Assembly: GCA_030653035.1 (NCBI GenBank)
Contig: JAUSAB010000024.1
Span: 1-35,021 of the forward strand
Reading direction: 5' to 3'
From: Desulfocapsaceae bacterium
GTDB taxonomy: Bacteria; Desulfobacterota; Desulfobulbia; Desulfobulbales; Desulfocapsaceae
Length of the DNA stretch: 35,021 bases
Made by a program: the position numbers and the translations under genes. The notes under the pieces are model-generated. The model did not search any database, had not been told where the DNA came from, and was given only the letters and a program-made list of their open reading frames with translations. Positions 12,537-16,948 of the stretch are shown piece by piece. The number at the start of each line of letters is the position of its first letter. Position 1 is the first letter of the stretch.

Positions 12537-13733
12537 ATGACCAAGACCCAATCATTTCAACCCCTTGCCAGTATGCCGAAATCGGTAAATCCTGCATCTT
12601 CTTCGGCTTCGTTAGTCCCGCCGCCGGAAGTCGATACCGGGGTCTGCTGAGGCCCCAAAACGGAACCCCGGGCCGGGGAGCATGAACGGGCAGGATACAC
12701 TTTATTCCCTTTTGTCGCTGGTTTTGTCGATTCACAGGCAGGTTTGGTTCCGCAGGTTGCTACCATCCTCAGCCGCACTGATCAGATGGGAACGATTGGC
12801 GCGCGAATCGGCATCCGGCGTGACCAATACACCATAACCCCCGGACTCTATTGTGTCGGCAGGTCAATCGCTGATTCGCCCGTCCTGGTTACCGCCAACT
12901 ATAAACTGACATTCGATGCCCTGCGCCGTGAACTGGGGGGCATGGATGTGTGGATACTGGTGGTGGATACCAGGGGCATCAACGTCTGGTGTGCAGCGGG
13001 AAAAGGGACATTTTCCACGGAAGAGGTAGCCTATCAGGTCCAACGGGCAAGACTTGCGGAGGTGGTCAAACACCGTGAACTCATTCTTCCCCAATACAGC
13101 GCCCCTGGGGTTTCGGCCCTGCAACTGAAAGCTGCCTGTGGCTTCAAGGGGATCTTCGGCCCGATCCGGGCCGCGGATATCAGGGCCTTTGTGGCGAACG
13201 GTAATACCGCCGACGAGGCCATGCGCAGCGCCACCTTCACCCTGAAAGAGCGGGCGGTCCTGATTCCATTGGAAATTTTCCTGCTGCTGAAGCCGCTCGT
13301 GCTCACCCTTGCCGGCCTGATGCTGTTGTCCGGATTCGGCCCGCAGATCTATTCCCTGGCGCGGGCATGGCAGCGGGGTGGGACCATCGCCCTGGTGACA
13401 CTTGCCGGTGTCCTTGCCGGGGCAGTTCTGGTGCCCCTCCTGCTGCCGTGGGTTCCCGGCAGACAGTTCTGGTGCAAGGGGGTGCTCCTGGGGATTCCAG
13501 TGGGGATCTTTACCGGTTTGCGGCTTCTGCCCTCTACCGGCTGGACGGCGGTGATCGGCATGGCCTTATGGGCCATGGCTGTCAGCTCCTATCTGGCCAT
13601 GAATTTCACCGGTTCCACCCCCTTTACCTCGCTTTCCGGGGTGGAGATGGAGATGCGCAAGGGGCTGGCGATCCAGATTGTTTTTGCCCTGTCAGGCCTG
13701 CTCTGCTGGTTTGCCGGGCCATTCTTCCTCTAA
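12537..13733 (+). CDS. hgcA: Mercury methylation corrinoid protein HgcA, with a putative selenocysteine codon (UGA at 12648-12650)
   Basis: Membrane corrinoid protein that transfers a methyl group to Hg(II), working with HgcB. The diagnostic cap-helix motif INVWCAAGKG is present, with the cobalt-coordinating Cys at residue 152 in this numbering, and the C-terminal half has about five membrane segments (from ~240). The ATG at 12537 opens a frame interrupted at codon 38 by TGA, directly after a TGC Cys codon (GVC-UGA-GPKTEP). Conserved-looking HgcA sequence FPFVAGFVDSQAGLVPQV follows the TGA, yet no ATG or GTG lies between, and the first TTG (12744) would remove it. With the UGA read as Sec the protein is 398 aa. 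Alternatives are a sequencing error, a nonsense mutation, or a TTG start with a shortened N-terminus. The family call is very secure; the Sec reading is an inference. Confidence 0.9.
12651..12678 (+). promoter_or_regulatory. Candidate bacterial SECIS hairpin in hgcA
   Basis: Directly after the UGA, 19 bases lead to a five-base apical loop GGGCC (12670-12674) closed by four G-C pairs (CCCC 12666-12669 with GGGG 12675-12678). Spacing of 16-37 bases, a short GC stem and G in the first loop positions are the features I know for bacterial SECIS elements. The stem is short and the region is GC-rich, so chance is possible. Confidence 0.55.
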
Positions 13734-13744
13734 GAAACAAGACC

Positions 13745-14038
13745 ATGAAAGAGTTCAGATACATAGATGGCGCAGCCATCCTCAAACTTGATCAGGCGGC
13801 CTGTGTTGGTTGCGGGATGTGCGAGATAGTCTGTCCGCACCGGATTTTCAGGTGTATTGAAAAAAAGGCGACCATTGTCGATTATGATGCCTGCATGGAA
13901 TGCGGGGCGTGTGCCAGAAACTGTCCCGTTGGGGCCATCTTTGTCAATCCCGATGACGGCTGCGGTTGCGCACGGTACATTCTTAACAGTTGGTTGGCCA
14001 GGATCACCGGGAAAAAATCATCGGCCTGCGGCTGTTGA
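13745..14038 (+). CDS. hgcB: Mercury methylation ferredoxin HgcB
   Basis: Small 2[4Fe-4S] ferredoxin (97 aa) that supplies electrons to reduce the HgcA corrinoid. The two cluster motifs are C20-x2-C-x2-C-x3-C30-P and C50-x2-C-x2-C-x3-C60-P. The additional HgcB-specific cysteines are present: C73 (in DDGCGC, with C75) and a C-terminal pair, here C95 and C97 (ACGC) rather than adjacent. It starts 11 bases after the hgcA stop, the standard pairing that defines a mercury methylator. The same frame is open upstream inside hgcA, but the ATG at 13745 gives the family N-terminus. Confidence 0.96.
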   Translation: MKEFRYIDGAAILKLDQAACVGCGMCEIVCPHRIFRCIEKKATIVDYDACMECGACARNCPVGAIFVNPDDGCGCARYILNSWLARITGKKSSACGC

Positions 14039-16033: not shown

Positions 16034-16948
16034 ATGCAATTTGAATTGAAAAGACTTCCTGATTATACGGATGAAACTCTCATCGATGAAATTCGACGAG
16101 TTGCAGCATTGGTTAATCATCCGACGATTTCCCGTACTGAGTTCCAGAAGCATTCACGTGTTCATACTTCTACGTTAGAGAAGCGTTTCGGCTGTTGGGA
16201 AAACACAATGAATGCTGCTGGCTTATCAGACCGTTTTGATTCTTCCAATAAAGCTGTAAGCAAAGAGGATATAATTACAGAGCTTCAAAAAGTTTCAAGT
16301 AAGCTGGGGGTCAAGACCTTCAGTAGAGAGCAGTTCAACGCTAATGCACATTTTAAGGACTCTGTTATTCGGAGAGTTTTTGGAACTTGGCGTAAAGCAA
16401 TGGAAGCCGCTGGTTTGACAGCAAATAAATTAGGCCAGCGGTACACTGATGAAGAATGTTTCGAAAATTTACTTCAAGTATGGACACACTATGGCAGACA
16501 ACCGCAACATAGAGAAATGAATCAACCCCCGTCTATTGTTGGCCCTAAGGCGTACACTCTCCGTTGGGAAACTTGGACAAAAGCCTTGTATGCATTCGTA
16601 GCGCGAGTAAATGACGACCTTCAGTCCGTGAATACTTCCTCAGAACCCGAATCACAACCCACGACAAAATCAGCGACAATATTAAAGTCGAAAACTGATG
16701 AACGAGATAGCCGTGATATTAGATTAGGATTACGATATACCATCCTGAATCGTGATAGGTTCAAGTGCGTACGCTGCGGCAATTCTCCCGCAATATCATT
16801 TGATTGCCTCTTGCATGTAGACCACATTTTCCCCTTTTCTAAAGGCGGTAAGACAGAGATTGACAATCTCAGAACCCTTTGCCAACACTGCAATCTTGGC
16901 AAAAGTAATCGAATTGAAGTGAGCGACCAACCAGCGCTCAGACCGTGA
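16034..16948 (+). CDS. HNH endonuclease with homing-endonuclease-associated repeats
   Basis: A 304-aa protein with two parts. Residues ~10-190 hold three helical repeats of ~50-60 residues, each with a core like TFSREQFNANA...VIRRVFGTWRKAMEAAGL (clear units end near AAGL at 61-64 and 124-127, with a third ending WETWTKALYAF), matching the DNA-binding repeats of homing-type HNH enzymes. A linker rich in Ser and Thr follows. The C-terminal HNH domain has zinc-binding C245-x2-C248 and C283-x2-C286 and the catalytic HVDH at 261-264, then LCQHCN. All key residues appear intact. No intron, intein or methyltransferase is beside it, so its target and role are unknown; it may be a stand-alone homing or defence-type nuclease. 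The AT-rich upstream region suggests acquisition by transfer. Confidence 0.85.
   Translation: MQFELKRLPDYTDETLIDEIRRVAALVNHPTISRTEFQKHSRVHTSTLEKRFGCWENTMNAAGLSDRFDSSNKAVSKEDIITELQKVSSKLGVKTFSREQFNANAHFKDSVIRRVFGTWRKAMEAAGLTANKLGQRYTDEECFENLLQVWTHYGRQPQHREMNQPPSIVGPKAYTLRWETWTKALYAFVARVNDDLQSVNTSSEPESQPTTKSATILKSKTDERDSRDIRLGLRYTILNRDRFKCVRCGNSPAISFDCLLHVDHIFPFSKGGKTEIDNLRTLCQHCNLGKSNRIEVSDQPALRP

Follow-up and report, generated by a model that had tools for sequence, protein, structure and literature searches.

A predicted selenocysteine next to a conserved cysteine in the mercury methylation protein HgcA of a Desulfocapsaceae bacterium and its relatives

Introduction

Methylmercury is made by HgcAB. 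The cobalt ligand of HgcA from P. mercurii ND132 is numbered Cys93 (PMC7305189), the expressed ND132 protein has a size of 37 kDa, and this heterologous 37-kDa HgcA supports methylmercury formation in lysate (PMC11588087). The second half-reaction is missing from purified HgcAB, for which the authors blame Sarkosyl (PMC11588087). In the partner protein HgcB, Cys73 and the tail pair Cys94/Cys95 have been proposed as carriers of Hg(II) or methylmercury (PMC7305189).

Selenoprotein forms of both proteins have been predicted. A table in a 2026 review (PMC13188914) lists HgcA (NF040863) as a selenoprotein with the motif CU and one Sec, citing its references 61 and 63, which are Zhang & Gladyshev 2008 and Haft & Gwadz 2023, and the review also gives a selenoprotein HgcB (NF040864) with the motif GVGU. 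A PNAS paper from 2024 (PMC11588087) says that HgcA homologs may be selenoproteins, again citing Haft & Gwadz 2023. Among the papers listed by our literature search, these were the only two in which we saw statements on HgcA as a selenoprotein; a term search of the main text of Zhang & Gladyshev 2008 (PMC2398784), which the review cites, did not find the protein. The first-pass annotation of the DNA studied here had known of no such description. It was mistaken on this point: selenoprotein HgcA is already in print as a prediction, and the gene described below is a further member.

Results

An in-frame TGA in hgcA

We analysed a stretch of 35,021 nucleotides from a Desulfocapsaceae bacterium (the window). 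The HgcA frame runs from ATG 12537 to the stop codon at 13731-13733 and is interrupted only by TGA 12648-12650, which lies directly 3' of a TGC codon (Table 1). Reading of the open frames agreed with the first-pass annotation that the frame is otherwise open and that no in-frame ATG or GTG follows the TGA, the first start codon being TTG 12744 (downstream open frame 12744..13733). The annotation had also claimed that conserved HgcA sequence is encoded between the TGA and the first usable start; this held, as the peptide between the TGA and the HgcA core is conserved in an alignment of relatives. No clear Shine-Dalgarno sequence was seen on inspection of the sequence upstream of ATG 12537. The match to the NCBIfam profile NF040863 begins at residue 71, the cap-helix motif NVWCAA with the cobalt-ligand Cys152 is present 114 residues after Sec38, and the computed mass of the protein with its N-terminal arm is 42.6 kDa.

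Two other features of the window were recorded: a 5S rRNA at 1-81, cut by the window edge, and a coding region at 16034-16948 whose product bears HNH_repeat and HNH domains and may be an endonuclease of the homing type.

Table 1. Positions of the hgcAB features discussed in the text, numbered from the first letter of the window.
Feature	Position	Strand	Support
hgcA, predicted product of 398 aa in which residue 38 is Sec	12537..13733	+	NF040863, 413.5 bits (cut-off 275)
TGC, Cys37 of the predicted Cys-Sec pair	12645..12647	+	invariant in two alignments, whose rows were picked for bearing a pair
In-frame TGA, predicted to be read as selenocysteine 38	12648..12650	+	comparison with relatives
Arm and linker from Sec38 to the first downstream start codon, containing the SECIS-like hairpin and the peptide GPKTEPRAGEHERAGY	12651..12743	+	
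Apical hairpin resembling a bacterial SECIS, with stem CCCC/GGGG and GGGCC in the loop	12666..12678	+	recurs at the same place in relatives
Cys152 codon in NVWC	12990..12992	+	corresponds to Cys93, the cobalt ligand in ND132 HgcA as published
hgcB, 97-aa dicluster ferredoxin, ending CGC then TGA	13745..14038	+	NF040864, 102.6 bits (cut-off 99)

Cysteine and TGA at the same codon in relatives

We searched 97 genomes, including the window's own, with the NF040863 profile; 90 of the 97 matched at E ≤ 0.001 and 61 passed the profile cut-off. The loci read were the window and 62 others, made up of 60 other genes over the cut-off and two fragments, with one genome (G023) represented twice. A script classed these 63 rows as 40 Sec, 18 Cys and 5 without a pair, and two of the Cys rows (L062 and L081) were then moved to the unscored rows because the pair was absent from the aligned place. 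The codon after the cysteine is TGA in 40 genes, the window gene included, and Cys in 16, out of 56 scoreable HgcA genes. This agrees with the first-pass statement that related proteins carry Cys-Cys-Gly at this point. Relatives do bear Cys or Sec here, contrary to one of the outcomes which had been named as grounds for rejecting the idea. The seven unscored rows are L030, whose frame is cut by a contig edge; L026, which is short with a TAG just upstream; L028, L054, L062 and L064, without a pair at this place; and L081, with a misplaced pair. Since the pair is missing from, or could not be seen in, these 7 of the 63 rows, the arm is not universal.

In a tree of 60 HgcA rows (38 Sec), built with the first 20 residues left out, the Sec rows form two separate groups, one a clade of 33 rows which includes the window and the other five rows within a different clade. 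The best tree needs 3 changes, of which 2 are forced by well-supported branches.

Breadth of the Cys-TGA form

Of 395 genomes searched within the phylum, 124 gave HgcA-like matches. In all we read 219 distinct loci, comprising 112 Cys-TGA, 79 Cys-Cys (scored wherever two adjacent Cys occur within the 42 residues that precede the core, without an alignment check) and 28 with neither or with a short frame, and it should be noted that these are not a random sample, as 8 of the 18 stretches in one batch were picked for a reported TGA. The family of genome G374, which we take to be Geobacteraceae, has an HgcA match in 40 of its 48 genomes, and among the matches listed all 30 loci read carry Cys-TGA. 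The genus of the record Pseudodesulfovibrio sp. MC-06 has an HgcA match in 21 of 36 genomes; 20 of these 21 carry Cys-TGA and the remaining gene (L268) is cut by a contig edge. The occurrence of Cys-TGA in this second family and in the Pseudodesulfovibrio genus is added by the present work. Among the 80 named loci which were kept, 23 have Cys-TGA, and the isolates with this form include Desulfoprunum benzoelyticum DSM 28570 (L126), Desulfopila aestuarii DSM 18488 (L128), Desulforhopalus sp. IMCC35007 and Desulfopila sp. IMCC35006 and IMCC35008.

The in-frame stop, found in a draft assembly, is the one observation which would suit a sequencing error or a decayed gene. With the same TGA in 40 of the 56 scoreable genes and in the isolates L126 and L128, conservation rules this reading out, and we give it a negligible chance.

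Several single loci differ from these patterns. In L186, from a record named SAR324 cluster bacterium, the HgcA arm carries Sec-Cys (UC), the reverse of the Cys-Sec order. The Cys-Cys HgcA of L022 (G075) has an extra in-frame TGA in its core (SVGKPUNDSPV), which is either Sec or an assembly error. In-frame TAG or TGA codons in L101, L102, L104, L107, L108 and L109 were considered as further recoding and proved to be ordinary terminal stops, and a proposed conversion of TGA to CGA (Arg) in L099, L169 and L195 was dropped as the codon there is CGC.

A hairpin at a fixed distance from the UGA

In the window gene a stem at 12666-12669/12675-12678 encloses a loop at 12670-12674, with spacings of 15 bases from UGA to stem and 19 bases from UGA to loop. 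We scored a hairpin as present where a loop of 4-7 nt has its first base 18-20 bases past the UGA, the stem comprises 4 or more bp of which 3 or more are G-C, and a G lies within the first two loop bases. This criterion was set on the first loci (the 56 scoreable genes), in which 38/40 Sec and 1/16 Cys genes have the hairpin, and was later applied to two sets which had played no part in setting it, in which 30/30 and 19/20 have it. Over the 219 distinct loci the hairpin was found at the fixed distance in 107 of the 112 Cys-TGA genes, leaving 5 without it, vs 3 of the 79 Cys-Cys genes. Random places within the same genes show such a hairpin in 76 of 1205 cases, so the hairpin at the Cys-TGA places is beyond chance. 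A looser scan was positive in 39/40 Sec and 5/16 Cys genes.

The stems covary among genes, taking forms such as CCCC/GGGG, CCAC/GTGG, GACCCC/GGGGTC and CTCCGC/GCGGAG. Among 34 distinct hairpins, a gene's own stem arms pair over a mean of 5.18 bp vs 3.28 bp for arms swapped between genes, and none of 5000 arm-swap permutations reached the pairing value of the own arms, in a comparison which leaves the relatedness of the genes uncontrolled. Folding energy gave no signal against synonymous shuffles (mean z −0.23 for Sec and −0.26 for Cys genes), and the looser hairpin arises in 46% of synonymous shuffles of Sec genes; this is probably due to the peptide itself encoding much of the stem. Within the window's clade the Sec forms have PR and then small residues where many Cys forms have PP or PPSS, a contrast which would be predicted were the peptide moulded by the stem. 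The comparative tests, including those in the two sets not used in setting the criterion, bear out the earlier suggestion of a GC stem with a GGGCC loop fitting the bacterial SECIS pattern. In one Cys-form HgcA (L060, G079) the SECIS place is occupied by a hairpin of 7 bp whose loop begins GC, which may be left over from an ancestor with Sec.

These counts bear on whether the TGA could instead be the true stop of a short leader, with an armless HgcA starting downstream, at TTG 12744 in the window or at a GTG in the Pseudodesulfovibrio relatives. Armless open frames do exist, the form beginning at the GTG fits the published Cys93 numbering, the heterologous protein is 37 kDa, and ATG 12537 has no clear Shine-Dalgarno sequence. 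However, the 16 Cys-Cys genes of the 56 read straight through the same place, the codon next to Cys is TGA in 112 of the 219 loci, 107 of which have the hairpin at its fixed distance, and the peptide from TGA to core is conserved; a leader stop is very improbable.

Selenocysteine machinery

The first-pass annotation had proposed looking for selA, selB, selC and selD in the same genome (3.41 Mb, 99.99% complete) and had named a lack of Sec machinery as grounds for rejecting its reading. The machinery is present: selA (619.7 bits), selB (384.9 bits), selD (376.7 bits) and a tRNA-Sec with a UCA anticodon (68.3 bits). A second Rfam tRNA-Sec match in this genome scores 62.3 bits and has CUUCAAA in its anticodon loop. 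The two tRNA-Sec candidates over the Rfam cut-off lie at 1501-1594 of L014 and 1501-1599 of L015, and ARAGORN calls only that of L014. The selD gene (L010, G000:C90:21938-22879) has an in-frame TGA inside its profile match, and SelD of this genome may be a selenoprotein too. Eleven further genomes were searched for selA (8 Cys-TGA, 2 Cys-Cys and 1 without a pair) and it was found in 10; no selA match was found in the Cys-TGA genome of L172, a MAG.

The partner protein HgcB

Directly downstream of hgcA lies hgcB, the sole NF040864 match over the cut-off in the genome. Its terminal TGA, which is followed by an open tail, was considered as a second Sec codon and rejected: relatives end in TGA, TAA or TAG and the following sequence is unconserved, and we have taken this TGA as a true stop. 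The window HgcB has Cys at the place of Cys73, in the form NPDDGCGCA. In the first set this GCGC form is present in 24 of the 40 Sec rows (HgcB could not be read in 6 of these rows, and L078 has DDKCGC), in none of the 17 Cys-labelled rows and in 1 of the 6 others (L026). In many genes of the Sec-HgcA clade HgcB has GCGC and a CxC tail in place of GVGC and CC.

An HgcB with an in-frame TGA at the Cys73 place (GVGU) was found in 19 of the 190 distinct loci in which both proteins are readable: L166, L167, L168, L173, L179-L183, L188-L193, L196, L198, L200 and L075. The HgcA arm is without a Cys pair in 12 of these 19. Of the 97 distinct loci with HgcA-Sec in which HgcB can be read, none has HgcB-Sec, vs 19 of the 93 others. 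This exclusion proves nothing, as the tree (three repeat loci included) needs only 2 changes in HgcB-Sec and gives 2 independent pairs. A weaker proposal than the one made below for the reference HgcA, and a lead only, is that the HgcAB complex has its Sec either in HgcA or in HgcB and in no case in the two together. Among six HgcB-Sec genomes searched, selB was over the cut-off in four; G572 (L191) gave a partial match and no selB was found in G057 (L075).

The N-terminal arm and a possible role with mercury

An AlphaFold model of the window HgcA has a mean pLDDT of 83.6, with residues 1-37 under 50 and two ten-residue blocks after residue 40 at about 74 and then about 84. This profile would place the Cys-Sec pair at the junction of a flexible arm and the ordered part of the protein. 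HgcA is characterised by five transmembrane helices past its corrinoid domain, and the model has five long helices as candidates for these, at residues 243-264, 274-305, 311-329, 336-360 and 366-397. The first-ranked Foldseek match is the HgcAB model 9a0b (the subject of the title of PMC7305189), with 56% identity over 320 columns.

Cys37 and Sec38 would lie where this disordered arm ends, with 114 residues from there to the cobalt-ligand Cys. Selenols bind Hg more tightly than thiols, and in a search for sites of Hg(II) uptake or product release a conserved Cys-Sec pair carried by a flexible arm is an obvious candidate. The pair would most likely bind Hg(II) or the methylmercury product and pass it to or from the corrinoid, or keep the corrinoid site reduced. 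By analogy with the role proposed for the Cys pair of the HgcB tail, we consider the chances of a function of this kind to be about even. A less probable alternative, in our view, is that the pair serves in redox chemistry or as a ligand in metal detoxification generally, for instance by holding Co or cysteines in the reduced state, and not as a site of Hg delivery. Vicinal CU motifs in other predicted selenoproteins, some of them metal-linked, are in keeping with this (PMC13188914), and nothing found here is decisive either way.

The start of the reference protein

In all 20 Pseudodesulfovibrio-genus genes the cobalt-ligand Cys lies 114 residues after the Sec. The codon from which this Cys would be counted as residue 93 is GTG in 12 of the 20, 21 codons after the UGA, giving products of 336-342 aa; the product has 338 aa in L263 (G536), L254, L256 and L258. 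The annotated length of ND132 HgcA is also 338 aa. With the arm included, HgcA would have a mass of about 42 kDa. Taken together, the Cys93 numbering, the 37 kDa size and the position of the GTG suggest that the annotated HgcA start may be an after-UGA start. The textbook start may therefore be a truncation artefact, and the Cys-Sec arm may be missing from the constructs that have been expressed. Our literature search, which did not reach Haft & Gwadz 2023, found no statement in print on the start or length of ND132 HgcA.

The heterologous 37-kDa ND132 HgcA is probably without the arm and still supports methylmercury formation, so the arm may be non-essential. If the constructs studied do lack it, its absence is a candidate cause for the missing second half-reaction of purified HgcAB.

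Discussion

Our results support the first-pass observation as real and its interpretation as selenocysteine as right. We estimate at roughly 90% the probability that the TGA of the window hgcA encodes selenocysteine beside a cysteine, making this gene a selenoprotein form of HgcA; the exchange of TGA and Cys between relatives, the SECIS-like hairpin and the presence of the machinery support this by sequence comparison. Ribosomes would start at ATG 12537 and reach the UGA at 12648, where the hairpin just 3' of it would recruit SelB and Sec-tRNA for the insertion of selenocysteine, a step which we infer to take place in the cell, and translation would then continue into the corrinoid-binding and predicted membrane domains.

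Selenocysteine might be inserted here with the UGA acting mainly as a switch on selenium status, such that HgcA is made only with selenium and the selenol has no special role with mercury. With the UGA as early as codon 38, almost none of the protein would be made if decoding failed; the Cys pairs at the same place in 16 of the 56 relatives point instead to a role for the side chain, and we consider the switch unlikely. If the selenocysteine-bearing arm does have a role, this would tie mercury methylation to selenium supply. A wider proposal is that the reference HgcA was annotated from a GTG past an unrecognised Sec codon, that native HgcA of the Pseudodesulfovibrio and Geobacter type is tens of residues longer, that its Cys-Sec arm acts in Hg(II) loading or methylmercury release, and that methylation in these bacteria is selenium-dependent. 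We put this forward tentatively and would lean slightly against it as a whole.

The window gene shares its family, the CU motif and a single Sec with the selenoprotein HgcA (NF040863) of the review table, and no difference was found from what that entry gives (PMC13188914). With the Cys-form HgcA (CCG) it shares the gene, the arm and the partner hgcB, whereas in the latter a Cys codon replaces the UGA and the hairpin is found in only 1 of 16 genes. In the selenoprotein HgcB listed in the same review (PMC13188914) it is the partner protein that bears Sec, in the position of Cys73; the window HgcB has Cys there and is without Sec. The large subunit of CFeSP (2ycl, 2h9a) shares the corrinoid-binding domain with HgcA, the matches covering this domain only, but is without the cobalt-ligand Cys of HgcA according to the published comparison (PMC7305189). 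The HgcA of P. mercurii ND132 (PMC7305189, PMC11588087) has the same domains as the window HgcA; unlike the window protein, its Cys93 numbering and 37 kDa size imply a start past the place of the Cys-Sec arm.
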